Positions 36,801 to 60,050 of a stretch of DNA of 64,000 nt are shown one piece after another; the first letter of the stretch is position 1, and each line of letters begins with the position of its first letter. Both the position numbers and the translations under genes were made by a program. The DNA is from Verrucomicrobiota bacterium. GTDB taxonomy: Bacteria; Verrucomicrobiota; Verrucomicrobiia; Opitutales; Opitutaceae. The notes under the pieces are model-generated. The model ran no database searches and was not told the DNA's origin. It worked only from the letters and a program-made list of their open reading frames with translations. Location: positions 1 through 64,000 of the forward strand of contig JAFEGO010000092.1 of assembly GCA_018239845.1 (NCBI GenBank), in the 5' to 3' direction.

Positions 36801-37796
36801 GGCGCGCTGGCGAAGACCGGCGCGGGCATCCTCGCCCTCACCGGCGTCAACTCCTACGCGGGCGGCACCACCATCGGCGGGGGCAGCACGCTCATGCTCG
36901 GCAACGGCGGCGCCGGCGGCTCGATCATCGGCAATGTGGCCGACAACGGCACGCTGGTCTTCAACCGCGGCGACAACTTCACCTTCAGCGGCGTCATCTC
37001 CGGCAGCGGCGGCTTGATGCAGGGTGTGGCCAACGGTCCGTTCACGGGCACCACGACGCTGACCGGCATCAATACCTACAGCGGCGGCACCACGATCAAC
37101 AGCGGCAAGCTCGTCGCCGGCAATGCCAGCGCCTTCGGCACCGGCCCGATCACGATCAACGGCGGCAGCCTCGGCGTGGCCCAGGGCGTCTCGCTCTCGA
37201 CGCCGCTGACCTTCGGCCCCGCGGGCGGCGTGCTCAGCGGCAACGGCACCATCAGCGCGCCTTTCACCACCGGTCAGAATGTCACCCTCTCGCCCGGCAA
37301 CTCGCCCGGCCAGCTCACCTTCACGAGCGGCCTCACCTGGTCCTCCGGCGGCGCCTACACCTTCGAGATCGCGAGCGCCCTCGGCACCCGCCCGGGCACG
37401 GATTACGATACGATCGCCATCACCGGTGGCGCGTTCGCCATCACCTCGACCACGCTCAATCCCTTCACGATCCACGTCACGTCCCTCGATGTGAATCTCG
37501 CCCCGGGCACCGTCTCGGACTTCAGCGCGGCGAGCAGCTACACGTGGCTGCTCGCGACCTCCGCCACAAGCATCCAGGGCTTCGCGCCGAACCTGTTCGC
37601 GATCGACACCTCGCAGTTTGCCAACGTGCTCGGCGGCGGCACGTTCTCGGTCTCGCTCGGCGGCCTCAATGGCGACACCTCGGTCTTCCTGAATTTCAAT
37701 CCCGCCTCCGTGCCCGAGCCCTCGACCTGGGCGTTGCTTGCTCTTGGTCTCGGGGCCGTCGTGCTGCTGGCCCGCCGGCGTCGCAAACAAGGGTAG
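30873..37796 (+). CDS. Giant autotransporter-repeat surface protein with PEP-CTERM signal
   Basis: A protein of about 2,307 residues. The proposed GTG start gives a signal peptide with a basic n-region, the hydrophobic core VLAALMLVAVA and an ARA cleavage site; the frame is open further upstream to 30687. The body has about 23 copies of an autotransporter-associated beta-strand (PATR) unit, consensus GANTYTGGTTVNAGTL, separated by glycine/threonine/serine-rich strands, so a long beta-helix is expected. The C terminus is VPEPSTWALLALGLGA, a hydrophobic helix and RRRRKQG: a PEP-CTERM signal handled by exosortase in the inner membrane. There is no autotransporter barrel. It is probably an adhesin or matrix protein. 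Confidence 0.85.
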   Translation: MRPRGFQSLVWRLSRVLAALMLVAVARAQFVQTGPGTYEYLSVLNWLGSLTGNINGQFTQTQTGAQTLTFTLDTTLSSGFTFNLGAPNSSLTLRSLGLADRTLTFGGDIAMASAYGTGVQIGDPTANNRLNLALTSGAHVLTLAANNSLSLVNTVSNAGGAASLDKRGDGFLFLSGANTYSGGTVIEAGSVFATNATGSATGTGNITIASGAQLAIGKDPAAALGAVSGNIASDGAVIFSRGDATTYAGKITGAGSVTQSGQGTLTLTGVSTYTGGTTVNNGTLVIGADQALPAGGNLLVDTNGALGVAHDQSVGTLQGSGAINLAAAHALSVDNGYFSGVISGDGKFVKTGGTDDYLTLTGANTYTGGTAVNGGSLTIEGDENLGAGSGGLSFDGGRLAFQEGGATARAITLNAGGGTISTGGVPVTLSGVISGPGALELHGTGDVTLSGNNTYSGGTLVSYGTTVAVASDANLGATAGGLVLTGGTLRTTAAIADFTHGIEFRDSDGTIDTFGYNSTVSGALTGTAGFTKVGEGTLTLTNSASDFSGWTYVRLGTLRLGVDQALPATGSIQIDSGATLDVAANLTTRYLGGYGAITLQRAQTLTIATGYGGSFAGVISGYGTLALADSTYLTLSGANTYTGGTTISSGSTLQVGDGETGSLAGDVANDGQLTFYTGGTQAYGGNITGNGSVEFRGGATYTLTGASTYTGATRLSGEATTVVVAAADTLPVATSLDVSSGATLQLDQNQTVRDLNGYDSSGRVVIGAGRTLTVNPAADTQNNFGGIISGAGALVKSGGGSLFLYNDNTYTGGTAVNAGTLYIGAGNESYPGGSVQGDITVASGALVAFNHAFDSTYGGVISGDGAVRTQGFGVMSLTGANTYRGGTTIDYGSTLAITSDTALGDAAGALTLRGGTLRTDAALGTVSRGLVLTDSTGYIDTNGFDSTFSGKITGNTGFTKTGAGVLTLTNPNSDYNGWLTVSGGTLRVGADNALPAAGNTYLGSEGTLDVAHDLTLFSVSGNGTITLAATKTLTLGGGYYNTFAGPITGDGALQVAANSSLQLNSDSTYTGGTTIGPGGSLSLGYNTATGSITGDVVNNGQLSFGRVGGETFAGAISGSGQISVTQDTLTLTGNNTYAGATTVYQDATLVAGAAHALPATTNLSLYANATLQLDASQTIAQLNSWQAGAQVILGQGTVLTVEPGQNGYSGTFTGVISGGGAFVKNGTNNQTLGGDNTYTGGTTVNAGSLTIGGTGESTTGSVLGDIALANHAQLWFQRSNAYTFAGAITGSGSVSSFGNGTLTLTGQSSYDGQTQVSNGTLRVGAAGALPATTAVSVNYATFDVGYDQTIASLSGNGVLTLGSGATLTVATAAENGSYFSGNVSGAGGLVKNGPDRLVLAGRNTFTGATTINAGELQISAYATTPALTAAITDNATLTFDNAADYTYSGVLSGAGMLNKRNYGTLTLTANSPFTGSVYISNGTLQLGTGGTAGGLSTTSIELDYGGTLAINRSDSFIYPGAVTGSGSFVKDGAGTLTLVGDNSFSGSATVNGGTLIVGAVTSLPQVLVTVNSGATLDIAADTTVASLTGTGTTTVDAAHTLTLANSSVLGSVVSGAGSLGISGQVVVTADQTYTGLTKVFDGGSLTLGNGGATGSVAGDISLGCYGSWLTFARSDRYTYAGVISGLGSVSVTGPGTLTFAGLNTYSGATQINSGGLADGVAGAFSPDSVIYLGSGATLSVNYNETIPGLMDAYPGYGGDVALAGGATLTVNVADNHFYTASGAITGAGSLLKTGAGYFTLGGAAAFTGGTTVNGGFLIVGNGDFGSLAGNVTFTGTTDLYGGELQFNRNDALTFAGAIAGPGRVSNFGYGTVSFSGASTYSGGTYLYAGRFADTATNRFSPNSAFYLNSLATLAVGYNETIAGLNDYFYIPTNGGGEPGPKPTPSSGGAVTLASGATLTVAMPAGYSQFSGAISGDGALAKTGAGILALTGVNSYAGGTTIGGGSTLMLGNGGAGGSIIGNVADNGTLVFNRGDNFTFSGVISGSGGLMQGVANGPFTGTTTLTGINTYSGGTTINSGKLVAGNASAFGTGPITINGGSLGVAQGVSLSTPLTFGPAGGVLSGNGTISAPFTTGQNVTLSPGNSPGQLTFTSGLTWSSGGAYTFEIASALGTRPGTDYDTIAITGGAFAITSTTLNPFTIHVTSLDVNLAPGTVSDFSAASSYTWLLATSATSIQGFAPNLFAIDTSQFANVLGGGTFSVSLGGLNGDTSVFLNFNPASVPEPSTWALLALGLGAVVLLARRRRKQG
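31390..37120 (+). repeat. PATR repeat array inside the giant surface-protein gene
   Basis: The DNA word AACACCTACACCGGCGGCAC and close variants recur roughly every 200-300 bases, coding for the NTYTGGT unit. Clear copies are near 31688, 31961, 32790, 34578 and 37073. The repeats are coding and of varied spacing. Confidence 0.8.
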
Positions 37797-46767: not shown

Positions 46768-47550
46768 ATGGCAACGAAAACCGCTCTCGTCACCGGCGCA
46801 TCGCGCGGCATTGGCCGCGGCATCGCCCTCGAACTCGCCCGCGCGGGCACCCGCGTCGCGATCAACTACGCCGGCAACGCCGAGGCCGCCGCCGAGGCGC
46901 TCGCCCTCGTCAAGGCCGCGGGCGGCGACGGTTTCATCGTGCAGGGCGACGTCGCCGTGGCGGCGGACCGCGAGCGCATGGTCGCTGAGACCGTGGCCAA
47001 GTTCGGCCGCATCGACCTCCTCGTGAACAACGCCGGCGTCGCCCCCAAGGTGCGCGCCGACCTCCTCGACGCGGGCGAGGAAAGCTTCGACCGCCTCTTC
47101 GCAATCAACCTCAAGGGCCCCTTCTTCCTCTCGCAGCTCGTGGCGAAGCAGATGCTCCAGCAGGCGCCCGACGCCGAAGGCTTCCGCGGTCGCATCGTGA
47201 ACATCACGTCGATCTCCGTGTACACCGCGTCGATCAACCGCGGCGACTACTGCATGGTGAAGGCGGGCCTCGCGATGATGACGAAGCTCTTCGCCGACCG
47301 CCTCGCGAACGACGGCATCAACGTCTATGAGATCCGCCCCGGCGTGATCGCGACCGACATGACGGGCGGCGTGAAGGAAAAGTACGACAAGCTCATCATC
47401 ACCGACGAGCGCGGCATCACCCCGATCCGCCGCTGGGGCAAGCCTGAGGACATCGGCCGCGCCGTCCGCGCGATCGCCGAGGACCGCTTCCCCTTCAGCA
47501 CGGGCGCGTGCTTCGATGTGGACGGCGGCTTCCATCTGCATCGGCTCTGA
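46768..47550 (+). CDS. Short-chain dehydrogenase/reductase
   Basis: A 260-residue classical SDR, NAD(P)-dependent. [12 protein letters not shown] (9-20) is the cofactor loop, NNAGV is near residue 90, and the catalytic Ser (NITSIS), Tyr161 and Lys165 (YCMVK) are in place. The C terminus ends in [15 protein letters not shown]. Fatty-acid ketoreductases and sugar dehydrogenases share this layout, so the substrate is not assigned. It lies 8 bases before rlmM on the same strand. No Shine-Dalgarno is seen; the start follows a CATCCCC run. Confidence 0.9.
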
Positions 47551-47558
47551 CCCCTCCG

Positions 47559-48557
47559 ATGCTGCTCATCGGCCAGGCCGGATTTGAAGAATACCTCGCG
47601 CGCGAAGTGAGCGCGCGAGGCGGGCGCGTGCTCGCGCAGGGGCCGGGCTGGGTGCGCGCGGAGGGCGCGGCGCAGGACCTTGCGTTTGCGCATGTCGTGC
47701 TGAGCGGCGAGACGGAGTTTGCGGGCGACTCGGTCAACGGGCTCGCGCAGCAGCTCGCGGATTTTTTCATGCAGAGCCTCAAGGGCGAGCGCATCGAGGC
47801 CGCGTGGCCCTGTGTGTTTGCCGGGCCGGCCGAGCTGGTCGGGCTCGGGCGGCGCATCGCCGGCGTGGAGAAGGCGTTTCACGAGGTGCTTAAGAAACGC
47901 TTCGCGCGCGTGGCCAAGCTCGCGGTGCCGGACCTGCCGCGCGGCGCGGGCAGCGTGCGCGGCCTCGCGGTGTGGTTCACGGATTTCGGCCGGCTGGTCG
48001 TCGCGCGTGACATCACGCTCAACGGCCAGCGCCGCATGGCCGACGATGATCTCGCGCCGTCGCGGAGTTATCTGAAGGTCGAGGAGGGTTACATCGTGCT
48101 CGGGCGCGAGCCGGCGCAGGGCGAGACGGTGTGCGACCTCGGCGCGGCGCCGGGCGGCTGGAGCTACAGCGCGGCCAAGCGCGGCGCGAAGGTCGTCGCG
48201 GTGGACAACGGTCCGCTCAAGGGCGGCGCGAAGGACAATCCGTTGATCGAGCACCGCATGGAGGACGCGTTCCGTTTTCAGCCCGCCGAGGGGCAGGCCT
48301 ACGACTGGTTGTTTTGCGACATGGTCGAGGATCCGCACCACGTGCTGCACCACATCATCGAGCCGTGGGTCGAGCGCGGCTGGTGCCGGCGCTTTGTGGT
48401 CAACCTGAAGTTCGGCCGCGTCGATGCCGTGGCGCTGCTCGATGAGCTGCGCGATCCGCGCTCGGTGCTGCAGCGTTGCGCGCCGGGCCTGCGCATCCGG
48501 CACCTGTACCACGACCGCGAGGAGTTCACCCTCGTGGGCGAGGTGGCGGCCAGGTAA
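47559..48557 (+). CDS. rlmM: RlmM-like 23S rRNA ribose 2-prime-O-methyltransferase
   Basis: A 332-residue SAM-dependent enzyme of the RlmM type, which methylates cytidine 2498 (E. coli numbering) of 23S rRNA. A THUMP-like N-terminal half precedes the Rossmann-like methyltransferase, with VCDLGAAPGGWSYSAAKRGA as the SAM loop, AVDNGPLKGGAKDN, the catalytic Asp region WLFCDMVEDP, FVVNLKFGRVDA with the catalytic Lys and HLYHDREEFT near the end. The length is slightly shorter than E. coli. The start is ATG at 47559; the open frame upstream overlaps the SDR gene. Confidence 0.85.
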   Translation: MLLIGQAGFEEYLAREVSARGGRVLAQGPGWVRAEGAAQDLAFAHVVLSGETEFAGDSVNGLAQQLADFFMQSLKGERIEAAWPCVFAGPAELVGLGRRIAGVEKAFHEVLKKRFARVAKLAVPDLPRGAGSVRGLAVWFTDFGRLVVARDITLNGQRRMADDDLAPSRSYLKVEEGYIVLGREPAQGETVCDLGAAPGGWSYSAAKRGAKVVAVDNGPLKGGAKDNPLIEHRMEDAFRFQPAEGQAYDWLFCDMVEDPHHVLHHIIEPWVERGWCRRFVVNLKFGRVDAVALLDELRDPRSVLQRCAPGLRIRHLYHDREEFTLVGEVAAR

Positions 48558-48695
48558 GGTTTTTTACCCCAAGCGCGCAAGGATCGCAAAGGCTGGGCTG
48601 GGAGGACTTTGCCGCCGTTGCGACCACGGCGCGGAAATAATCAGGCGGTTGAGCGTGGACAGCGCTGCGCGGCGGTGGGTTACTTACACCCCATC

Positions 48696-49232
48696 ATGAT
48701 GACCTCATTCAAAAAAATCCTCCTCGGCTTCGTGCTGGCTCTGGCCGGCGTCGCCGCGGTTTCCGCGAATCCGGCGCTGGCCGGCCGCTGGCGCCTCGAC
48801 CCGGCGCAAAGCACGGCGCTCGACGGCTGGTCCACCCTCGACTTGGTCGTCTCGCTCGACGGCAGCAAGGTGGCGCTCCGCCACGAGCTGACCTGGGGCG
48901 CCACCAAGGCGACCGAGACCAACACGCTCGACACCGCCGCTCCGGTGGACGCGGCGAAATACTTCCGCATCGAGGCGCGCCACATGGCGGTTTATCCCGC
49001 CAAGGGCGGCGTCACGCACGCGACGGCGACGTGGATCGACAGCGGCAAGACGCTGCGTATCGAGGCCACGACGCCCGTCGAGGTTTCCCAGGGCATCGTG
49101 CCCATCCGCCTTTACAGCGAGTACCGCGTGAGCGAGCTCGGCGATGTGCTCACCGTGATCGAGCTGCGTTCCTCGCGGAATCGTCCCCTCGTCTATGTCT
49201 TCAAGAAAGTGCCGGCGGAGGCGGCTAAATAA
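48696..49232 (+). CDS. Secreted protein of unknown function
   Basis: A 178-residue protein with a clear Sec signal peptide (KKILLGFVLALAGVAAVSA, cleaved before NPALAG). The mature part begins AGRWRLDPAQS, a start like lipocalin-type proteins, and is rich in beta strands (LDLVVSLDGSKVALRHEL, TATWIDSGKTLRIEATT, LRSSRNRPLVYVFKKV). No family is recognised with certainty. It lies 6 bases before the GxGYxYP gene, so they form an operon and may handle the same substrate. ATG codons occur at both 48696 and 48699. Confidence 0.7.
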   Translation: MMTSFKKILLGFVLALAGVAAVSANPALAGRWRLDPAQSTALDGWSTLDLVVSLDGSKVALRHELTWGATKATETNTLDTAAPVDAAKYFRIEARHMAVYPAKGGVTHATATWIDSGKTLRIEATTPVEVSQGIVPIRLYSEYRVSELGDVLTVIELRSSRNRPLVYVFKKVPAEAAK

Positions 49233-49238
49233 AATACC

Positions 49239-50897
49239 ATGAAACGCATTTTCTCTTTCCTCATCCTCTCCTGTCTCGCGCTGACCCTGCGCGCTGAAAC
49301 CGAGACGACCCTCACCGCCACGCCGGCCCGCGAGGCCTACGTGATGCACTTCGACCTCAACTGGAATGTCGCCGGCGGCCTCCCCGAGAAGGCGATGCTC
49401 ATCAGCCTCCAAGGCCTGGCCAACCGCACGGCCCCGAATCTCTACGTGATCCACCCGAAGGAGTACCAGTGGGAGATCACCCAGCCGCTCTACGACTACT
49501 ACGAGCGCAAGTACCACGTGCACTTCACCCCGCTGGCGACCGCCGACGCGGCGCTCACGCAGTTCAAGTCCGCGGCCAAGGGCTACGTCGTGTGGGACAA
49601 GAAGGTCGGAGCCTCCCTTAATGTCGCCTTCACCATCGCCGGTCTCGAGGACGCGGTGGTCGTGAGCGAGGAGCTGATCCCCGTTGTTGAAAAACACGGC
49701 CTGAAGAAGATCGACGACCTTCGCGGCCGCTACACCGGCCAGACCGATGCGCAGATCTATCAGGATGCGGTCAACCGCTACTGGTCGCGCACCAACAAGG
49801 ATGCCGTCATGATGATGGGTGGACACCGCGGTGCGGTGATGATGCCCGGCATGGCCGACTGGGGCGTGCGCCAGAAGATGTTCTTCCACGACCTCGCGGC
49901 CAATCCCGCGATCCCCGCCGAGCTCGCGCTGGAGCGCAAGCTCCTCAGCCAGCTCAACCCCGGCGCGACCGTCTTCGGCTGGCACCCCTACGGCAAGGAC
50001 ACCGAGGAGCAGCACACCACGCTGATCTCGACCTACGGCCTCAAGATGGAGGGCCTGCACAACCTGCCCAACCTGAGCTTCAACTGCCAGTTCACCTTCA
50101 CCCCGGGCTTCAAGTTCACCAACCACCACCACGTGGACCGCGACGCCAAGCTCGTCGCCGGGCAGAAGGTTTACATGGCCTTCGTGCAGTCCGACTCGAT
50201 CGGCATCGGCGTGTGGACCAAGCCCGGCCGCGGCAAGCTGCCCTTCGCCTGGCAGGTCACGATGAACTGGACGAAGTTCTCGCCCGCCGCGCTGGAGTAT
50301 TTCCACGAGAGCGCGACGCCCAACGACTACTTCATCGGCGGCCTCTCCGGCCCCGGCTACATGTACCCCAACCACATCCCGGCCGACAAATTCCCGCTGC
50401 TGATGAAGGAGGCCAACGAGATGATGAACATGCTCGATGAGCGCGTGCTTGAGATCATGGACAACTCCGCCGCCGACGGAAACCTTGGCAACGCCGACCT
50501 CACCAAGGAGACGGTGGACCGCTACTACAAGGCGTTCCCCAACGTCATCGGCTTCATCAACGGCTACGGCCCGGCCCGCACGCGTGACCTCCGCGGCTCG
50601 CAGCCGATGATCTCATACGACTACTACATCAACCCGCGCCGTCCGCGCGACGAGGTCACGGCCGACCTCAACGAGCTGATCGCCCTCAACGCGAAGCGCC
50701 CGTACTTCCTGCTCGTGCACGTGCGCGAGTCGAACGACGTGAACAGCCTTGTCGAGGTGACGAAGCGTCTCGAAGGCCCGGTCGAGATCGTGCCGCTCGA
50801 TGTCTTCCTGAAGCTCGCCGCGAGCAATCAGACGTACACGACCCGCTACCAAGACCCCGAGGAGCCCAAGCACTTCGCGGGCTTCCCGAAGGAGTAA
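49239..50897 (+). CDS. GxGYxYP-domain secreted protein (putative glycoside hydrolase)
   Basis: A 552-residue protein with a Sec signal (KRIFSFLILSCLALTLRA). The domain name motif is seen as GPGYMYP near residue 371 in FIGGLSGPGYMYPNHIPADK. GQKVYMAFVQSDSIG and PFAWQVTMNWT are further family stretches. The GxGYxYP family is predicted to be a glycan-degrading TIM-barrel hydrolase, but its reaction has not been established to my knowledge. It follows the small secreted protein gene by 6 bases and has its own terminator. Confidence 0.85.
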   Translation: MKRIFSFLILSCLALTLRAETETTLTATPAREAYVMHFDLNWNVAGGLPEKAMLISLQGLANRTAPNLYVIHPKEYQWEITQPLYDYYERKYHVHFTPLATADAALTQFKSAAKGYVVWDKKVGASLNVAFTIAGLEDAVVVSEELIPVVEKHGLKKIDDLRGRYTGQTDAQIYQDAVNRYWSRTNKDAVMMMGGHRGAVMMPGMADWGVRQKMFFHDLAANPAIPAELALERKLLSQLNPGATVFGWHPYGKDTEEQHTTLISTYGLKMEGLHNLPNLSFNCQFTFTPGFKFTNHHHVDRDAKLVAGQKVYMAFVQSDSIGIGVWTKPGRGKLPFAWQVTMNWTKFSPAALEYFHESATPNDYFIGGLSGPGYMYPNHIPADKFPLLMKEANEMMNMLDERVLEIMDNSAADGNLGNADLTKETVDRYYKAFPNVIGFINGYGPARTRDLRGSQPMISYDYYINPRRPRDEVTADLNELIALNAKRPYFLLVHVRESNDVNSLVEVTKRLEGPVEIVPLDVFLKLAASNQTYTTRYQDPEEPKHFAGFPKE

Positions 50898-50918
50898 GCG
50901 CGAAAGTTTTTAAATACA

Positions 50919-50947
50919 GGCCCGCTCATGGTGAGCGGGCCTTTTTT
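50919..50947 (+). terminator. Rho-independent terminator after the GxGYxYP gene
   Basis: The stem GGCCCGCTCA pairs with TGAGCGGGCC around TGG and runs into six Ts (50942-50947). It overlaps the TAA stop of the convergent minus-strand gene at 50946-50948. Confidence 0.93.
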
Positions 50948-52499
50948 ATGCCCGGTCAAAACCCAATCTGATCACCCCCGAGGCATCCGGCTTCAGGGCA
51001 AAGCCGGCCTCGTGCGCGATAGTCGAGCCGGCCAGCACCGGCACGGTGTACTCGTAGCCTTCGTGGCGGTAGCGCAGTGCGTGCGTGTCCGCGCCGACAA
51101 ACGCGGTCTTGAGCGCGGGCGACCAGTTCGCGGTCAGCGTCCAGTCGAGTCCGGCGGGACCGCGCAGCACGATCGCCTTCTCCTCAAAGGTGAAGGCGAA
51201 GCGGTGGTCGAGACGGGCATGGAGCGTCTGCGCATCGAGCTCCGTCACCTGCGGCGCGGTGGGCAGTGCGATCGGCTGGCCCGCGGCATCGAGGATGCGC
51301 AGCGAGGCCTTGTGCTGGGCATCGCTCCAGAGGAAGCCATCGAGCACGGGGAGGGCGTCGTACTTGCAGGCGCGCTCGGTGCAGACGGTATTCAGGAACG
51401 GCTCGGCGCGGCGCTCGTCGTAGCGCTGGATGTCGCGGATGCGCCACGCGGCGCCGTCCCAGCGCAGGCTGGTGCGATAGTTTTTGGAGCAATACCAGAA
51501 GGCGCCGCGGTCGGGGGCATTGAGGTCCTGCGGAGCGACGACCGCGGAGGGCGGGGTGAGAGGATAGCGGGCTTTGAACCACGCGCCGGACTGCGAGAGC
51601 GTTTCGACGCGCACGAGGCCGCGCTCACGCAGTTCGGCGATGCGCTGGTGCTGGTGCTCGAGGCCCTTCTTCATGAGGGGCCAGCCGAAGGAGTTTTCCT
51701 GGCCGACCTGCGTGTAGCCGAAGCTCAGGCAGGGCGTTTCAAACATGTTCGAAAGAAAACGGTCGGTCCACGCCGCGTCAGCGCCGCCGGGCGAGATGGG
51801 CTCGAGGGTGAGGACGAGCTGGCCGTTGTTATGCACGGTATCGAGGTCGATCTCGTACTGGTGGATGGGGTCGCTGCCGAGCATCCGGAAGGTGGGTACA
51901 TTGATCTGCGCGGCCGCCGTCTGGGCGGGGATGTAGGCGTTGAGCTTGGAGGGGTAGTAGGCCTGGTTGAAGTAGCCGCCCCAGAGCGTGTAGCCATCGG
52001 TGCCCCACTGGTCCTTGCAGTTGCAGAAGGCGACGAGGCCGTGCTGCTGCTCAAGGTGGGCGAGGGAGTGAGCGTCGAGGATCCAGGAGCCGGCGGCCTT
52101 GGGTGTGTAGCCGAAGGTGGCGCGAAACTGCGCGACGAAAATGTCGAGCATCTGCGTGCGCTCGGCCGGCGTGTAGCCTTGGGAGAAGCCGACGTTCACA
52201 TGCCAGTCCCACGGAAAACGTCCGCGCCACTTGAGGCCGGCCTTCTCGACGAGCGGCTGCACGAACTCGATCCAGATGCCGACCTCGTCGCCGGGCGGGA
52301 TCGCCTTGAGGATATCGGTGAAGCGGGATTCGAGCAGGGCGTCATACTGGATGAGCCAGGTGACAGGCAGGCCGTGGCGCTGGGCGAGCTCGCGCTGGCG
52401 GAGCACGGGCTCGAGGAGATCGATCGTGGCGTCGCGCGGCTCAACCGCACGGATGAAGTTAATGATATGAACGATACCTTGGCGTGGGGCAGCTTGCAT
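50946..52499 (-). CDS. Deacetylase/GH57-like barrel protein of unknown function
   Basis: A 517-residue cytoplasmic protein with no signal peptide. The first 250 residues look like the (beta/alpha) barrel of polysaccharide deacetylases or GH57 enzymes: GIVHIINFIRAVEPRDATID, QRHGLPVTWLIQYDALLESR, then GDEVGIWIEFVQPLVE and an FGYTPKAAGSWILDAHSLAHL segment. The C-terminal 150 residues look like a beta-rich substrate domain. ATG 52499 is the start; the frame stays open for 219 bases further upstream. Convergent with the GxGYxYP gene, so probably regulated separately. Confidence 0.55.
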   Translation of the reverse strand: MQAAPRQGIVHIINFIRAVEPRDATIDLLEPVLRQRELAQRHGLPVTWLIQYDALLESRFTDILKAIPPGDEVGIWIEFVQPLVEKAGLKWRGRFPWDWHVNVGFSQGYTPAERTQMLDIFVAQFRATFGYTPKAAGSWILDAHSLAHLEQQHGLVAFCNCKDQWGTDGYTLWGGYFNQAYYPSKLNAYIPAQTAAAQINVPTFRMLGSDPIHQYEIDLDTVHNNGQLVLTLEPISPGGADAAWTDRFLSNMFETPCLSFGYTQVGQENSFGWPLMKKGLEHQHQRIAELRERGLVRVETLSQSGAWFKARYPLTPPSAVVAPQDLNAPDRGAFWYCSKNYRTSLRWDGAAWRIRDIQRYDERRAEPFLNTVCTERACKYDALPVLDGFLWSDAQHKASLRILDAAGQPIALPTAPQVTELDAQTLHARLDHRFAFTFEEKAIVLRGPAGLDWTLTANWSPALKTAFVGADTHALRYRHEGYEYTVPVLAGSTIAHEAGFALKPDASGVIRLGFDRA

Positions 52500-52620
52500 G
52501 GGGTGGGCGTGGCAGCTTGATGGCACGGCGAGGCGCCCACTGGCAAGGCCCCCGACGCGGGATGACAGGCGTGGATACGTTTGCGCTGGTCGCATACGGC
52601 CCAGTTGGCTTGGATGCGGC

Positions 52621-55005
52621 ATGCCCCAACGTCTTCGCTCTGCGGTGCTTTTCCTCTGGCTGGTTTGCACGGTGATCTCGGCGAATGCGGCGCCGCTCGC
52701 TTTGTTTTGTGAGGTCAACGGCCGGCCTTATCCGGTGGCGAAGGTCGAGCGGCACCAGATTTGGGTGATGGTGGAGGGCAAGCTGACTCCCGCGCCTCGC
52801 GACGCGAACTGGCGGCTGGAGGGCGACTTGAAGGAGAACGCGCGCTATGCGGACTGGTCGCCGAGTTACAAGGTTTCGCGGTTGGATATGCCGGATTACA
52901 AGGTCGCGACGACGCCAGTGCAGCTGGAGGCGCGTGTCTGGGTCAGGCATTGGATCAAAGGGGCGCATATTGAATTTGGGGGTCGGATGATGCGCATGGA
53001 TTTCGCCGGGCCATTTGTTGATGTCTGGCCGGAGGGTCTGACCACGCCGGGTGCGGTCGTGATGGCGTGGGTTTTGCACGGACAGGTCGTCAAGGCCGAG
53101 GCGCAGCCCGTTCCATCGATGAGCCAGGCCCAGGATTTCTGGGCTGATATCAGCTGGGATCTGACCCCGGACGAAGCGATGGGGCAGCCGGTGGCCCTGC
53201 TCTGGCATGAGGGGGCGTTTGTACCGGTAAGGCCGCGCTTCGCCAAGCCGGAGGGAGAGGCGGCCTTCCATGCGGTTGAGATGCATGACCTCGCGGCACT
53301 CCAAGCCGCCCTGCACGCCGGATTGAAGCCCGGGATCGAGGATCGGAAAAATGTTTCGCTTTTTTATTACGCGGCCGAGGCCGGGAACCTCGGGGCGGTG
53401 GAGATGCTGCTGGCGGCGGGAGTGAGTCCCAACAGCGACCAGCGCAAGTTCAATATCCCGCTGAGTGCGGCGGTGAGCGGAAACCGTCAGGCGGTGGTTG
53501 ACCGGCTGCTGGCGGCGAAGGCGAATCCAAATGGCGGCACCAGGGGACTCTGGCCGCTGGCCGTGGCGCTGAACCAACGGCTCAATGGCATCGCCCTGAG
53601 CTTGGTGGCGGCAAAGGCCCGGTTGAACGATACGGACATTGTGGGGCACGAACCCGTGATCGTCGCAATGGATCTAGGTATGGCCGATGTCGCCAGCGCC
53701 ATGATCGAGGGCAAAGCCTATCAGGATGCCGACAAGGATCAGGCGGCCCGCGTGCTCATCACCCAGGCGAAAAAAGGTCACACGGCCGTCGTCCGCCTGC
53801 TTTTGCAGCAGAAGATCAAACCCGACCTCGAGTTCCAGGATGGCACCGCCTTGATCATGGGTGCGAGCAGCGGTGATCCCGAGCTGGCCAAGGCGCTGAT
53901 CGCAGCGGGTGCCTCGCCTAATCAGGCCGTGGCGGGCGGACTGACTCCGCTCATAGCAGCGGCAGTCAAGGGCCAGGCGGACTATGCCGTTGCGCTCCTT
54001 GATGCAGGCGCGAATCCCGATGCCACGACGGCCGACGGATGGACGGCCCTTCATTTTGCCGCGCAGGAGCGCGCGACTGCCGTGGTGGCGCTTCTGCTGG
54101 CTCGGGGCGCCAAGGCGGACGTCGCGGCGAAGGACGGTCTGACTCCCCTGCACATCGCTCTCAACGTGCAGGCGCGCGAAGCCGCCGACGCCATCGTGGC
54201 GAAAGGGGCGAAGCCTGACCTGCAATCGCCCGATTTCATGGAAACGGCCATCACCATCGACGCGAAGGCGGTGGTGCAGGCGGCCCTGGCCGCCGGCTGG
54301 TCATGCGACACGGTGTTTCGCGGCGGCTGGCCGGCGTTGCGCGTGGCGATCGAGGCTGGTGCTCCGGCCTCGGCCTCGTTGCTACGCACCGCCGGCGCGA
54401 AGGAAACGGCCGGCGGTCCGACGATGGCAAGCAGTGGAAAATTGGATGCGAAAATCAGGCTGCTCAAGGGCGTGCCGCCGGAGGATCCGCGCGATCCTGA
54501 GGACGACGACCTGCCCGCGCGGACGGTGGAGGCCGACATCGTGATCGACCCGAGCGGCGAGGTGCGCTTCCCCCGGGTGGTAGGTGCGCCCGAGCCGGCT
54601 TTGGCCATCGAGACTCTGCGGGTGCTCCGGCAGTGGCGGTTTGCGGCACCCTTGAGCCAGCAGTCGCCGGTGGCCATCCGAGCCCGGGTGCCCGTGACCT
54701 TTGCCGCGTCGGCCGATCTGGCTAAGGATATGTCCGAGGTGGATCGCGAGCCTGAGACCTTGAAGATGGTCAGTCCTGATACCCCGCCAAGCATGCGGTG
54801 GGGCGACTTCAGTGGCGTAGTCTGGCTGCGGTTCATCGTCACGCCCGAGGGTCGCGTCACCCACATCCGGGTGAAGGGCGCCCAACATCCGGAATTCGCC
54901 AGGGCAGCGGTCGAGGCAGTCGCGCAGTGGACGTTCAAGCCTGCCGTACTGGACGGCAGGCCCGTGGCGGTGTGGATGAATAGATCCGTGCTCTTCCGGC
55001 GCTGA
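52621..55005 (+). CDS. Ankyrin-repeat protein with two TonB C-terminal domains
   Basis: A 794-residue secreted protein. The signal peptide is RLRSAVLFLWLVCTVISANA. Residues 20-215 are an unrecognised beta-rich domain. About ten ankyrin repeats follow (220-595; for example DGWTALHFAAQERATAVVALLL and DGLTPLHIALNVQAREAADA). Two TonB_C-like domains end the protein, at about 632-705 (VEADIVIDPSGEVRFPRVVG) and 724-794 (GVVWLRFIVTPEGRVTHIRV, ending in QWTFKPAVLDGRPVAV). There is no N-terminal TonB-type anchor, so it is probably periplasmic. Ankyrins suggest protein binding; TonB_C suggests contact with outer-membrane receptors. Confidence 0.85.
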   Translation: MPQRLRSAVLFLWLVCTVISANAAPLALFCEVNGRPYPVAKVERHQIWVMVEGKLTPAPRDANWRLEGDLKENARYADWSPSYKVSRLDMPDYKVATTPVQLEARVWVRHWIKGAHIEFGGRMMRMDFAGPFVDVWPEGLTTPGAVVMAWVLHGQVVKAEAQPVPSMSQAQDFWADISWDLTPDEAMGQPVALLWHEGAFVPVRPRFAKPEGEAAFHAVEMHDLAALQAALHAGLKPGIEDRKNVSLFYYAAEAGNLGAVEMLLAAGVSPNSDQRKFNIPLSAAVSGNRQAVVDRLLAAKANPNGGTRGLWPLAVALNQRLNGIALSLVAAKARLNDTDIVGHEPVIVAMDLGMADVASAMIEGKAYQDADKDQAARVLITQAKKGHTAVVRLLLQQKIKPDLEFQDGTALIMGASSGDPELAKALIAAGASPNQAVAGGLTPLIAAAVKGQADYAVALLDAGANPDATTADGWTALHFAAQERATAVVALLLARGAKADVAAKDGLTPLHIALNVQAREAADAIVAKGAKPDLQSPDFMETAITIDAKAVVQAALAAGWSCDTVFRGGWPALRVAIEAGAPASASLLRTAGAKETAGGPTMASSGKLDAKIRLLKGVPPEDPRDPEDDDLPARTVEADIVIDPSGEVRFPRVVGAPEPALAIETLRVLRQWRFAAPLSQQSPVAIRARVPVTFAASADLAKDMSEVDREPETLKMVSPDTPPSMRWGDFSGVVWLRFIVTPEGRVTHIRVKGAQHPEFARAAVEAVAQWTFKPAVLDGRPVAVWMNRSVLFRR

Positions 55006-55080
55006 CTTCGGCACGGCAAACGAGTGCTGGCGGGCGGCACTTTTGTTTGGTTTTCGCCCCGGGGTGAGTCACGCTGGGGC

Positions 55081-55923
55081 ATGGCTCACTTTTCCAAACG
55101 AGGGCAGGGTCCGCGTCCGCACCGTCGTCCGTCGCAGGGCGCGGGCGCGCCGGCGATTTCGGCGTCCCGGCCTGAAGGGCCGGAGCGGCGCGAGGAGCTG
55201 AAGCTCTGCGGGCTTGGCGCGGTACGGGCGCGGTTTGCGCGCGACCCGGGGTCGATCCAGCGGCTGTTCTTCGATCTCGCCACGAGCAAACAGATCGGCG
55301 CCATCTGCAAGGTGCTCGCGCAGGGCAAAAAGGTTTACCGGTGCGTGGAGCCGGCGGAGCTGGAGAAGATCGCAGGCTCGATCCACCACGGCGGGATCGT
55401 CGCCATCGTCTCGCCGCCGGCGCTGCGTGTGACGACGTCGGCTGACGTGAAGGACTGGGCGCGGCGCGGCGAGCCGCTGCTGGTGCTCGACCGCGTCGGC
55501 AACGCCCACAATCTCGGCGCGATCGCGCGCACCGCGGCGTTTTTCGGTCTGCCACGCATCGTGATTCCCGATGACCCGGCGGCGGCGCGGCCTTCGGAGG
55601 CGTCGCACCGCGTGGCCGAGGGCGGGTTGGAGTACGTGGAAGTTTGGCAGACGAAGGATCTCCTGGCTTTCGTGCGCGACCTGACGGCGGCGGGCTACGA
55701 GGTGGTCGGCGCGGCGACGCGCGGCGGCCGGCCGGATGCGCCGCGCCCGGCGGAGCGCAAGCCCTTCGCGCTTGTGCTCGGCAACGAGGAGCACGGGATC
55801 GCGCCCGCGGTGTTGGCGGCGTGCACGCGGCTCGTCACGATTCCCGGCCACGGCAAGGTCGAGTCGCTCAATGTATCCGTGGCGGCCGCGGTGCTGATGT
55901 GGGAATTAGCGGCCCGGCGCTGA
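55081..55923 (+). CDS. TrmH/SpoU-family RNA 2-prime-O-methyltransferase, YfiF-like
   Basis: A 280-residue SPOUT enzyme. After a basic, proline-rich tail (1-45), a substrate-binding domain has ELKLCGLGAVRARFARDPGS and IAGSIHHGGIVAIV. The SPOUT knot has motif 1 LDRVGNAHNLGAIARTAAFFG, motif 2 LVLGNEEHGI and motif 3 IPGHGKVESLNVSVAAAVLMWE. The pattern resembles E. coli YfiF/TrmG more than RlmB or TrmH. The start is ATG at 55081; the frame upstream is open but lacks family sequence. Confidence 0.88.
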   Translation: MAHFSKRGQGPRPHRRPSQGAGAPAISASRPEGPERREELKLCGLGAVRARFARDPGSIQRLFFDLATSKQIGAICKVLAQGKKVYRCVEPAELEKIAGSIHHGGIVAIVSPPALRVTTSADVKDWARRGEPLLVLDRVGNAHNLGAIARTAAFFGLPRIVIPDDPAAARPSEASHRVAEGGLEYVEVWQTKDLLAFVRDLTAAGYEVVGAATRGGRPDAPRPAERKPFALVLGNEEHGIAPAVLAACTRLVTIPGHGKVESLNVSVAAAVLMWELAARR

Positions 55924-55997
55924 GGCGAGTTTTCTCTTCTAACCGGGCGGGGGCGGGAGCATAATTCCGGCAAACGGAACTAATACCCCAAATCCCC

Positions 55998-57395
55998 ATG
56001 GTTTCCCTCGCTCCCCCCAACGAAAAATCCCCCGCTACCTTCGACTGGCCGCTCGCCTATGAGGCCGAGCAACTGGTCGGAGGTTTCATCACGGCGTTTT
56101 TAGAAAAACACGGTTTCGCGCAAAAACTCGCCGCGCGCATGCGCGACGAGACCGGCACCGAGTTTTACGAATGGACCGATCACTTCGCGCTCTCGCCCGA
56201 ACACGGCGCGGCGCTGCGCGCGGTCGGTTTTGTCGAAGAGAATGTCCCGGTCGGCGTCGGCGCGACGGTGCTGCACCATCCGAAGGCGATGATGCCGCGC
56301 GTGGTGCTGCACGCGGGCGGCAGCCGCAATGGCGTGCCGGCGGCGCTCGCGATCAAGCCGGAGGTGCTGCCGGATTTTCTGGCGGCGCACGATCTCGCGG
56401 TGCCCATTGAGGGCGACTTTGGCGCGCGCTTGCGGCGGGCGCTCGTGGCCGAGGAAAACGGCCTGAGCCTGTATGCGGTCGAGCGGCTCGGCTACCGCGG
56501 TTTCCTCGTGGAGGAGCCGGCGCCGGGTTTCGCGGCGGCGGTGATCAAGGCCCGCGAACTCTTCCGCACGCGCCGGCGCAATTTCCCCGATGACGCGCAG
56601 GGCGTGAAGCATGCGTTTGACGTGCTCGCGCAGGTCCTGGCGCTCGTACCACGCGATGTGGCCTGCGAGTTGTTCTTCGCGGAGGAGCGGGTGTACTGGG
56701 AGTTTCGCAACCGTGCGGGCCGCGTGCAAAAGCGCCGGCAGGACACCCTCGGCCTCGGCTGGGGCAACCACGACCACCACACCTTCCGCTGCTCGCGACG
56801 GCTCTTCGCGGACCTCGTGGAGTTTCTCACGCGGCTTGGGCTCGAGAAGCGCGAGCGCTTCTACGCGGGCGACGAGGCGGGGTGGGGTGCGCAGGTGATG
56901 GAGGCGCCGGCGGTGGGTATCGTCGTCTTTGCCGACGTCGATCTGCAGCCGGGTGAGATCGACATCGATTTTGCGGCGCAGCGCCTGCCCGAGCTGAAGG
57001 AGCTGCGCACGGTCGGCCTCTGGTGCGGCTTGCACGGCGACAGCTTTCTTCAGGCCGGCATGCATCACCTCGAGGCGCGTTTCGACTTTGCGCGCTTGCG
57101 CGACCAGCTGGCCGCGGAGGGCGTGGCGACGATGAAGCCGTTTTCGGACTTCGCGTTTCTCAAGCAGGCCTTCACCGAGGGCGAACGTTGGCGCGTGCGA
57201 CCGGAACGCGTTGCCGAGCTGGTGAAGAAGAACTTCATCACGCCGGCGCAGGCCGACGGTTTCATCCGTGACGGCGCGATCGGCAGCCACCTCGAAAACC
57301 TTCAGCGCAAGGGCGGCTTCAAAGGTTTCAACCAAAAGGCCGTCAGCGCGATCATCGCCGCGACGGATCCCCGCAAAGTGCAGGCGCACGCTTGA
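55998..57395 (+). CDS. Conserved-looking protein of unknown function in a lysine-type operon
   Basis: A 465-residue cytoplasmic protein that I do not recognise by family. FYEWTDHFALSPEHGAALRAVGFVEENVPVG lies near the N terminus. A later part, WGNHDHHTFRCSRRLFADLVEFL followed by FADVDLQPGEIDIDF, has several His and acidic residues and could be a metal site of the vicinal-oxygen-chelate type. CGLHGDSFLQAGMHHLEARFDFARL and GSHLENLQRKGGFKGFNQKA follow. It begins the operon with a lysine/saccharopine dehydrogenase and an ALDH7 enzyme, 21 bases before the next gene. Its job may be in lysine breakdown, perhaps as an oxygenase, but this is inference only. Confidence 0.8.
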   Translation: MVSLAPPNEKSPATFDWPLAYEAEQLVGGFITAFLEKHGFAQKLAARMRDETGTEFYEWTDHFALSPEHGAALRAVGFVEENVPVGVGATVLHHPKAMMPRVVLHAGGSRNGVPAALAIKPEVLPDFLAAHDLAVPIEGDFGARLRRALVAEENGLSLYAVERLGYRGFLVEEPAPGFAAAVIKARELFRTRRRNFPDDAQGVKHAFDVLAQVLALVPRDVACELFFAEERVYWEFRNRAGRVQKRRQDTLGLGWGNHDHHTFRCSRRLFADLVEFLTRLGLEKRERFYAGDEAGWGAQVMEAPAVGIVVFADVDLQPGEIDIDFAAQRLPELKELRTVGLWCGLHGDSFLQAGMHHLEARFDFARLRDQLAAEGVATMKPFSDFAFLKQAFTEGERWRVRPERVAELVKKNFITPAQADGFIRDGAIGSHLENLQRKGGFKGFNQKAVSAIIAATDPRKVQAHA

Positions 57396-57416
57396 ACCCC
57401 CAATCCCCAGTTCCCC

Positions 57417-58493
57417 ATGAAATTTGGCATCATCGGTGCCGGCAAGGTCGGCTCCACCATCGCTACCCTGTTAGAGTCGTGTGATTTTTGCGACAGCGTT
57501 ACCTTCGCGGACAGCCGCGCGAATCTGAAACTCGCCGGTCTGAAAAAGGCCTCGGCCAGGAAGATCGACGTCACCAAGCGCGCGCCGCTCGACGCGTTTG
57601 TGAAACGCTGCGACGCCATCGTGAGCGCCGCGCCGTATTTTCTCAACAAGGGCATCGCCGAGGCCTGCGCGCGGCAGGGCGTGTCGTACTTCGACCTCAC
57701 GGAGGACGTGGAGACGACAAACTTCATCCGCCGCCTCGCGAAGAAATCGCAGGTCACATTCATGCCGCAGTGCGGCCTAGCGCCCGGCGCGATCAACATC
57801 GTCGGCGGCAGCCTCGCACGCTCGCTGCAGACGGTGCGCAACGTCGAGATGCGCGTCGGCGCGCTGCCGCTCTTCGCGGGCAACCAGATGAAATACTACC
57901 TCAGCTGGAGCACCGCGGGGTTGATCAACGAGTACTGCCAGCTCGGCGAGGCGCTGCACAGCGGCAAGCGCATCACGACGCTCCCGCTCGACGGCGTGGA
58001 GCGCTTGACGGTGGACGGTGTCGAGTACGAGGCCTTCAACACCTCCGGCGGCGTCGCCACGATGTGCGAGACGTTCGCGGGCAAGGTCGGGGAGCTGAAC
58101 TACAAGACCATGCGCTATCCCGGCCACCGTGACCTGATGAAGTTCCTCCTGCAGGATCTCAATCTCGCGGAGAAGCAGGAGGTGCTCACGCAGATCTTCG
58201 ACCAGGAGGTGCCGCTGACGGATCACGACGTCGTGGTGTTTTATGTGAGCGCGGTGGGCACGATTGACGGCGGGCTGGTGCAGCGCAGCTTTGTAAAAAA
58301 GATGCGCGGCGCCGTGGTCAACGGCCGCACGCTCTCCGCGATCCAGCTCACGACCGCCGCGGGCGTCACCGCGGTGCTGGAGATTTTCGCGCGCGGCGGG
58401 CTGCCGCGCGGTTTTGTGAAACAGGAATCCATCACGCTAAAAACCTTTCTCGCCACGCAATGGGGCGGGAAGGTTTACGGCGGCAACACCTAA
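57417..58493 (+). CDS. Saccharopine/lysine 6-dehydrogenase-like oxidoreductase
   Basis: A 358-residue NAD(P)-dependent enzyme. The Rossmann loop GIIGAGKVGSTIATLLESC is at the N terminus, then DAIVSAAPYFLNKGIAEACA, VSYFDLTEDVE and FMPQCGLAPGAINIVGG, all typical of the Sacchrp_dh_NADP plus C-terminal domains. The size fits lysine 6-dehydrogenase (LysDH), which turns lysine directly into aminoadipate semialdehyde, better than the longer bifunctional enzymes. The neighbouring ALDH7 would take the aldehyde onwards. A carboxynorspermidine or saccharopine role is less supported. Confidence 0.82.
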   Translation: MKFGIIGAGKVGSTIATLLESCDFCDSVTFADSRANLKLAGLKKASARKIDVTKRAPLDAFVKRCDAIVSAAPYFLNKGIAEACARQGVSYFDLTEDVETTNFIRRLAKKSQVTFMPQCGLAPGAINIVGGSLARSLQTVRNVEMRVGALPLFAGNQMKYYLSWSTAGLINEYCQLGEALHSGKRITTLPLDGVERLTVDGVEYEAFNTSGGVATMCETFAGKVGELNYKTMRYPGHRDLMKFLLQDLNLAEKQEVLTQIFDQEVPLTDHDVVVFYVSAVGTIDGGLVQRSFVKKMRGAVVNGRTLSAIQLTTAAGVTAVLEIFARGGLPRGFVKQESITLKTFLATQWGGKVYGGNT

Positions 58494-58502
58494 GGAACCA
58501 CC

Positions 58503-60050
58503 ATGGCCATCACCGTCAAAAAAACCGCCGCCGAGATTTTCCCGCGGCTCGGACTCAAGGCGAAGAATCCCGGCGTGTTCGCCGGCGAATGGTTCGGCTC
58601 CGGCGCCAGGATCGAGTGCCGCTCGCCGATCGACGGCACGGTGCTGGCCACGGTGGTCGCGGCGACGCCCGCCGAGTACAGCCGCGCCTCTGCGGCCGCA
58701 CACCGTGCCGCCCTCGCGTGGCGCGAGGTGCCCGCGCCGAAGCGCGGCGAGGTGATCCGACGCCTGGGTGAGACACTGCGCGCGCACAAGGCCGATCTCG
58801 GCCGGCTCGTCTCGCTCGAGGCGGGCAAGATCATCGCGGAGGGTGAGGGCGAGGTGCAGGAGATGATCGATATCTGCGACTTCGCCACCGGCCTCTCGCG
58901 TCAGCTGCATGGCCTCACCATCGCGAGCGAGCGGCCCGGCCACCGCATGATGGAGCAGTGGCATCCGCTCGGCGTGGTGGGCATCATCTCGGCCTTCAAC
59001 TTTCCCGTGGCCGTGTGGTCGTGGAACAGCGCGCTCGCCGCGGTGTGCGGCAACGCGACACTCTGGAAACCCTCCGAGAAAACCCCGCTCACCGCGATTG
59101 CCTGCGCGAAGCTCGCGGAGAAGGTGGCCCGCGCGAGTGGCGTCGATCCCGCGATCTTTTCCCTCGTCTGCGGCGACGGTCCGAGCGTCGGCGAACTCCT
59201 CGCGGCGGACCCGCGTGTGCCGCTTGTGTCCGCGACCGGTTCGACGCGCATGGGGCGGCACGTCGGCGAGGTGGTGGCCAAGCGTTTCGGCCGCTCGCTC
59301 CTCGAACTCGGCGGCAACAACGCGATCATCGTCACCCACTCGGCCGACCTGAAGATGGCGCTGCGCGCGATCCTCTTCGGCGCGGTGGGCACGGCGGGGC
59401 AGCGCTGCACGAGCACGCGCCGCGTGATCATCCACGAGTCGGTTTACCGGCGGTTTTTGAAATCGCTGATCGAGGCCTACCGGCAGGTGAAGATCGGCAA
59501 CCCCCTCGAATCCGGCACGCTGATGGGTCCGCTCATCGACGTCGCCGCGGTGGAAAACATGATGAACGCCATCGCCGCCGCGAAGCAGCATGGCGGCAGC
59601 GTGCTCTACGGCGGGCGGAAGGTCGGCGGAGCGCTCGGGGAGAACGGGCTCTACGTGACCCCCTGCATCATCGAGGCGGAAAATCATTGGTCGGTCGTGC
59701 AGCACGAGACCTTCGCGCCGATCCTCTACGTGATGACCTACAAGACGCTCGACGAGGCGATCGCGCTGCAAAACGCCGTACCGCAGGGCCTGAGCTCGGC
59801 GATCTTCACGCACGACCTGCGCGAGGCGGAGATTTTCCTCTCCGCGCGCGGGAGCGACTGCGGCATCGCCAACGTCAACATCGGCACGAGCGGGGCCGAA
59901 ATCGGCGGCGCCTTCGGCGGCGAAAAGGAGACCGGCGGCGGCCGCGAGAGCGGCAGCGACGCCTGGCGCGCCTACATGCGCCGGCAGACCGCGACCGTGA
60001 ACTACTCGCGCGAGCTGCCGCTGGCGCAGGGGATCAAGTTCGGAGAGTAA
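58503..60050 (+). CDS. ALDH7-family aldehyde dehydrogenase (aminoadipate semialdehyde dehydrogenase-like)
   Basis: A 515-residue NAD(P)-dependent dehydrogenase close to antiquitin (ALDH7A1). Diagnostic stretches are MMEQWHPLGVVGIISAFNFP, SLLELGGNNAIIV with the general-base Glu, GTAGQRCTSTRR with catalytic Cys near 301, and GGAFGGEKETGGGRESGSDA near the C terminus. The AGGA in TAAGGAACCACC just before 58503 is a likely ribosome site. Nine bases separate it from the dehydrogenase gene. It probably oxidises aminoadipate semialdehyde to 2-aminoadipate. Confidence 0.92.
   Translation: MAITVKKTAAEIFPRLGLKAKNPGVFAGEWFGSGARIECRSPIDGTVLATVVAATPAEYSRASAAAHRAALAWREVPAPKRGEVIRRLGETLRAHKADLGRLVSLEAGKIIAEGEGEVQEMIDICDFATGLSRQLHGLTIASERPGHRMMEQWHPLGVVGIISAFNFPVAVWSWNSALAAVCGNATLWKPSEKTPLTAIACAKLAEKVARASGVDPAIFSLVCGDGPSVGELLAADPRVPLVSATGSTRMGRHVGEVVAKRFGRSLLELGGNNAIIVTHSADLKMALRAILFGAVGTAGQRCTSTRRVIIHESVYRRFLKSLIEAYRQVKIGNPLESGTLMGPLIDVAAVENMMNAIAAAKQHGGSVLYGGRKVGGALGENGLYVTPCIIEAENHWSVVQHETFAPILYVMTYKTLDEAIALQNAVPQGLSSAIFTHDLREAEIFLSARGSDCGIANVNIGTSGAEIGGAFGGEKETGGGRESGSDAWRAYMRRQTATVNYSRELPLAQGIKFGE

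Follow-up and report, generated by a model that had tools for sequence, protein, structure and literature searches.

What does a bacterium do with two TonB_C domains at the end of a long ankyrin protein, when such a domain is generally read as the sign of an energy transducer? The gene that raises the question lies in the window, that is, the whole 64,000-nucleotide stretch of DNA that was analysed (contig JAFEGO010000092.1 of the Verrucomicrobiota assembly GCA_018239845.1, family Opitutaceae), and its reading frame translates into 794 aa without an internal stop, Table 1. By Pfam matches, a hydropathy scan and an AlphaFold2 model of the whole protein (12-sequence alignment, mean pLDDT 84.6, pTM 0.70), its parts in order are a putative signal peptide, a predicted all-β N-domain, 12 ankyrin helix pairs and the two TonB_C units, TBC1 and TBC2; in the model strands lie within residues 27-196 and helix pairs within 210-590, followed by two β-β-α-β units. 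This is a new arrangement of known domains. We found no paper on a protein joining ankyrin repeats to TonB_C in the available portions of the open-licence literature, PMC12204202 and PMC7251102 included, and the 50 matches listed in a structure search with the whole model are ankyrin proteins.

Table 1. Coordinates of the ankyrin-TonB_C gene and its parts in the window.
Feature	Residues	Position	Strand	Basis
Whole gene, stop included	794 aa	52621..55005	+	frame without stops; relatives in other genera; syntenic orthologue in G070
Putative Sec-like signal peptide	1-23	52621..52689	+	sole hydrophobic stretch, no lipobox
N-domain, predicted all-β, small SH3-like part then Ig-like sandwich	24-204	52690..53232	+	AlphaFold2, VIA-align
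Ankyrin solenoid, 12 helix pairs	206-592	53236..54396	+	Pfam, AlphaFold2 model, phmmer against PDB ankyrins
TBC1, first TonB_C unit	613-696	54457..54708	+	33.2 bits; AlphaFold2
P-E-D-P-R, replacing TonB P-x-Y-P	620-624	54478..54492	+	alignment with E. coli TonB
TBC2, second TonB_C unit	706-794	54736..55002	+	51.3 bits; AlphaFold2
P-D-T-P, replacing TonB P-x-Y-P	719-722	54775..54786	+	alignment with E. coli TonB

A hydropathy scan finds a single hydrophobic stretch, at the N-terminus, and a search of this region for a lipobox returned none. We read the stretch as a Sec-like signal peptide that is probably cleaved after ANA, and the protein as exported. The same scan shows no N-terminal anchor of the TonB type. 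In TonB this anchor carries a Ser-His-Leu-Ser motif that binds ExbB, according to the available portions of PMC12905483; the motif is absent from the ankyrin-TonB_C protein, whose N-terminus, MPQRLRSAVLFLWLVCTVISANA, lacks His. Nor does the AlphaFold2 model contain a proline-rich or helical spanning linker like that of TonB, its place being filled by the ankyrin solenoid and the β N-domain. A sequence-only reading of the window had already remarked that anchor and rod are missing, and on this point it was correct.

That reading had also described an unknown domain of 200 residues after the signal peptide. The absence of a Pfam match stands for the window copy (none at E up to 1), while the extent has been amended to that given in Table 1, and an N-domain profile run against PDB sequences gives no match at E up to 5. 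Predicted alone from 25 sequences, the domain has a pLDDT of 89.1 and a pTM of 0.84. VIA-align superimposes the model on Ig-like parts of GH2 enzymes (Z 6.8, 82 residues, 2.5 Å) and on SH3-like integrase domains (Z 4.4, 45 residues, 2.6 Å), both within the range of common arrangements, and nothing above Z 8 was obtained with the Foldseek candidates, which is no proof of a new fold. SH3-like and Ig-like are thus descriptions of the predicted structure, with kinship to either family not claimed.

The ankyrin repeats themselves are secure (Ank_2 match of 3.2e-33, 114.6 bits against a Pfam cut-off of 27.3), and only their number, put earlier at about ten, has had to be revised to the 12 helix pairs of the model, the first and last of which are divergent. 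Exposed positions outside the ankyrin consensus are poorly kept among nine nearer relatives, with a conservation of 0.25 vs 2.11 for the core and 1.16 for DARPin-type positions, and better kept among eight more distant relatives, which are closer to each other (1.21 vs 2.06 for the core, 1.61 for DARPin-type positions). Since the two sets keep these positions so differently, the clients of the solenoid may differ between lineages.

Both C-terminal units exceed the curated Pfam cut-off of 24.6 bits for TonB_C, with TBC1 at 33.2 bits (54523-54702) and TBC2 at 51.3 bits (54811-54999) in a scan of the source genome, and both are modelled as β-β-α-β: strands 634-642 and 647-655, helix 659-669 and strand 685-694 in TBC1; helix 723-727, strands 732-740 and 745-754, helix 757-767 and strand 784-792 in TBC2. 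Structure prediction, which had been named beforehand as the check on the proposal of two TonB_C domains, thus returns TonB_C folds for both. The last β-strand is retained in each of the modelled units. It is to this strand that partners of TonB and TolA are bound by addition of a parallel strand (PMC12905483, PMC12204202), and HasB likewise binds by strand addition (PMC3602595), as far as the available parts of these papers describe.

The start of each domain is different. The profile matches begin at positions 17 (TBC1) and 15 (TBC2) of 79, so that the non-matching part is the domain start, the site of the Pro-x-Tyr-Pro motif in other TonB_C domains of the source genome. The window copy has the motif in neither unit, P-E-D-P standing in TBC1 and P-D-T-P in TBC2, and the position of E. 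coli TonB Arg158 is a Met in its TBC2. An alignment to E. coli TonB shows [YF]-Pro at the Tyr-Pro site of TBC2 in 15 of 17 proteins of the family, the exceptions being the window protein itself (Thr-Pro) and L049; the count leaves out L046, whose three units all lack Tyr-Pro, as well as the single units found in L094, L095 and L097. Of 13 proteins, 7 have Asp-Pro at the same site of TBC1, 4 have Tyr-Pro and the remaining 2 (L050, L089) have neither, with units below 12 bits omitted (L049, L051, L088, L091, L096, L098). In a quick tree of 102 domains a branch (SH-aLRT 90, not starred) separates 12 of 13 TBC1 from 17 of 17 TBC2; the TBC1 side also holds six units of tandem TonB_C proteins and three single units, TBC2 does not form a single clade, and with few supporting columns the support is modest. 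The degree of conservation differs as well, TBC2 being the best-kept region between L091 and L093 (68% vs 57% overall) and between L091 and L092 (61% vs 36%). It is not the best kept between the window protein and its orthologue in G070, where TBC2 is 34% identical, TBC1 43% and the whole protein 35%. On the motif counts, the tree and the region comparisons we regard the pair as old and unequal; in the window copy the more TonB-like of the two no longer has its motif.

Several other origins and uses of the pair were considered. A recent duplication of one TonB_C domain was set aside in favour of an old pair, as the quick tree parts TBC1 from TBC2. A kinship of TBC1 to the last unit of tandem TonB_C proteins seems likely by eye and is unsupported by the tree, and a role of TonB_C as a C-terminal sorting tag is ruled out by its internal position in L041 and L056. 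The suggestion that two units could act as interchangeable hands bridging receptors is not supported, the pair being unequal and Pro-x-Tyr-Pro missing from both units of the window copy. TonB structures (PF03544; 6fip, 1u07, 2gsk) match a profile of the pair over the TBC2 half only (best 3.3e-14), none matching the TBC1 half. The window protein is like TonB in that TBC1 and TBC2 are TonB_C domains and unlike it in having two of them behind ankyrins, no anchor or proline rod, and a replaced Tyr-Pro in both.

Near full-length relatives were found within the same family in a search of 57 related genomes, with tandem pairs in G014 and G015; those with names are two Ereboglobus sp. records (Opitutaceae, Opitutales, Verrucomicrobiota) and an Opitutaceae bacterium. 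Among 25 other family genes from Opitutaceae and other Opitutales, where TonB_C units were counted with local profiles at lax thresholds (5 bits or 3 bits), 17 have at least two units behind the ankyrins, including L046 with three and L098 with a frame split over two ORFs. Five have one (L042_9298, L044_7248, L094, L095, L097), and in three none was found (L099, L100, cut by a contig end, and L045, truncated); in L047 the gene start was called too late. Of 10 relatives scanned with Pfam at E 1e-3, 9 combine Ank with TonB_C, and 4 show two separate TonB_C stretches. The domain order, singled out as unusual from the letters alone, is thus real, and a chance fusion or frame artefact is ruled out by its retention in several genera. 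Its distribution is patchy. The N-domain profile matches 16 of 372 genomes of the order, a figure that includes the source genome and truncated or split copies, and 8 of 387 genomes in a sample of the phylum, all eight within the order. We conclude with high confidence as regards the anatomy that the architecture is real, recurrent, unusual and fast-evolving.

The pace of change is best seen against the neighbouring genes. A syntenic orthologue is present in another genus (G070, locus L090), where all 8 of the flanking window genes compared (46768 to 60050, not counting the gene itself or the ORF 50946-52499 on the minus strand) are matched in the same order. The two ankyrin-TonB_C proteins are only 35% identical (pN 0.49, pS 0.64) vs 57-89% for the flanking genes (pN 0.08-0.30). 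Within genus g20 the corresponding values are 36 and 39% vs 70-91%, and within g21 41% vs 58-90%. In every family pair compared pN lies below pS; dN/dS ratios are mostly unusable because synonymous sites are saturated. Such fast divergence could mean either changing partners or weak constraint. Among the 41 window genes longer than 200 aa, this one also has the lowest codon fit, and so do 9 of 13 family genes within their own loci, a hint only as the score includes amino-acid make-up.

Neither does the locus name a partner. Across the 23 loci compared, neighbouring gene families recur at most four times; the commonest, at 4 of 23 each, are a short-chain dehydrogenase type, a SpoU methyltransferase, which is also near the family gene in Ereboglobus-type genomes (L088, L045), and one family at g20 loci, the rest recurring in 2 or 3. 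We have rejected a functional operon on these figures, and a partner gene seems not to lie beside this one. Some features of the surroundings may be recorded here. The minus-strand ORF 50946-52499 has no Pfam match and no counterpart at this position in the G070 locus, which is syntenic otherwise; the plus-strand gene 55998-57395 encodes a 465-residue protein with no Pfam match above cut-off and keeps its order with a saccharopine-dehydrogenase-like gene in G070, and a very large ORF of about 2288 residues occupies 30933-37796 (+).

It had been noted that the gene stands without ExbBD or receptor genes. This holds locally and fails for the genome, which contains 18 Plug-domain matches (17 over cut-off) and 7 ExbD matches, one of them on the same contig (C115:72758). 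TonB_C is abundant too, with 27 matches in 18 genes. About three of these (L058, L059, L060) look like anchored TonB or TolA types, one of them, a TonB, adjoining two ExbD matches on C27, and in our reading the other 15 do not look like anchored transducers. Five of the 18 are small lipoproteins by their lipobox; elsewhere TonB_C is fused to an M48 peptidase, to Sel1 repeats, to the regions of an ECF sigma factor or to further TonB_C. Three consecutive small lipoproteins with one TonB_C each lie on contig C72 (L052:6818-8094). On C105 a minus-strand gene (L057:8092-9423) encodes a sigma factor of the ECF type (regions 2 and 4) that contains two hydrophobic stretches and ends in a TonB_C domain (349-425), possibly a membrane-held sigma factor able to read the state of a receptor directly. 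On C94 (L039:8515-14929) three proteins each have four or five TonB_C units by local profile, near a gene for a Sel1-TonB_C protein; similar tandem proteins occur in G004, G023, G021, G034 and G007, and their units group by position in the tree. These tandem and Sel1-TonB_C proteins resemble the window protein in being exported or envelope proteins whose TonB_C is not part of an anchored transducer, some also placing it behind repeat scaffolds, and differ in having no ankyrins, no such N-domain and, in the tandem proteins, more units. In a sample of 237 genomes of the phylum, counted up to a ceiling of 22 matches for each genome, at least 10 TonB_C matches are found in 20 of 39 genomes of the same family (the source genome included), 13-19 in a few genomes of the order's other families and up to 10 elsewhere in the class; outside the class the maximum is 4. 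The ankyrin-TonB_C protein thus belongs to a set of TonB_C proteins that has spread throughout the lineage.

With no anchor to link it to ExbB/ExbD there is no evident route by which motor force could reach the protein, and the simplest reading is an unpowered periplasmic adaptor, to which we assign a probability of roughly 0.35. Exported and soluble, it would reside in the periplasm as an envelope scaffold, its N-domain and solenoid holding one or more client proteins, while the TonB_C pair, mainly TBC2, would dock on β-strand peptides by strand addition, by analogy with TonB and TolA, so that partners would be tethered or positioned and not pulled on. Residence, partners, strand addition and scaffold role are all things that we infer. 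The recurrence of two units behind ankyrins, the [YF]-Pro of most TBC2 and pN below pS speak for an adaptor. Against it count the lack of Tyr-Pro in either unit and the Met at the Arg158 position, the five one-unit relatives, the absence of a regularly recurring neighbour gene, the fast divergence, a TBC2 that is not the best-kept region between window and G070, and the poor conservation of exposed ankyrin positions among the nearer relatives. The loss of Tyr-Pro makes receptor docking by the window copy less likely; the G070 orthologue, whose TBC2 has retained it, is the better object for that question.

The same loss, together with Asp-Pro in 7 of 13 TBC1 and the fact that neither unit is best kept by much between the window protein and G070, would follow if both TonB_C units had given up TonB-box binding and become general-purpose modules of the envelope that dimerise, associate with the wall or make a fixed contact within the protein, with the ankyrins doing the specific work. 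We hold this to be a doubtful though serious competitor, opposed by the retention of the TonB motif in 15 of 17 TBC2. That retention speaks instead for a decoy or regulator of the Ton system, in which TBC2 and true TonB would compete for receptor TonB boxes, TBC2 damping or reserving them, and the ankyrins would anchor or sense; the genome does supply a TonB adjoining two ExbD, along with the 18 Plug matches. The motif is lost, however, in the window copy and L049, some paralogues lack TBC2 (L042_9298, L044_7248), and the N-domain profile reaches just 16 of the 372 genomes of the order, leaving a decoy rather unlikely.

Divergence so much faster than that of the syntenic neighbours also raises the less likely case of a weakly constrained or decaying accessory gene, whose product would be real but of minor function and which would be on its way out in some lineages. 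Low codon fit and patchy distribution agree with it, as does the copy in G003 (L045:9334-10053), which stops after the first ankyrin repeat while a second genome of the genus, G344, has a full-length gene at the same locus (L088:4357-6816; 87% identity over the shared part), so that the gene does seem to be disappearing in places. Yet long open frames preserve the same order at 20-40% identity across genera, pN is consistently below pS, and tandem duplicates are kept in G014 and G015, all of which argues against decay. Pseudomonas AnkB, which we take to be a periplasmic ankyrin protein, shares a signal peptide and ankyrin repeats with the window protein, and genes of its kind adjoin a catalase gene. 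Export of an ankyrin protein would suit a similar stress protein supporting an enzyme such as catalase, and periplasmic ankyrins do appear beside catalase work in the available parts of the literature. No catalase was found by Pfam among five neighbouring proteins, the other loci being judged by gene lists, and AnkB to our knowledge is not known to carry TonB_C or such an N-domain, a distinction drawn by description; we consider this very improbable.

The unpowered adaptor leads to a more daring variant, which we offer as a long shot, a fast-evolving TonB mimic whose pair would catch strand peptides of the TonB-box type and whose solenoid would hold or dispose of the catch, the targets conceivably being receptors or incoming TonB-using bacteriocins and phage proteins. 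A contest with changing partners would be expected to produce fast divergence amid conserved neighbours; weak constraint would produce the same. If such a mimic exists, then it and the genome's TonB_C lipoproteins and tandem TonB_C proteins would make up a layer, separate from the Ton motor, in which peptides are docked or intercepted.

What can be said of the family is that one branch has joined TonB_C to a long ankyrin solenoid and kept the arrangement across genera. The unequal pair, with Tyr-Pro kept or lost between relatives, makes it possible to test directly which features the domain requires in order to bind a TonB box. Should TonB_C work here as a docking module in its own right, many genes of the group would be misnamed by the label 'TonB', and the envelope would contain a layer of unpowered adaptors that still awaits study.
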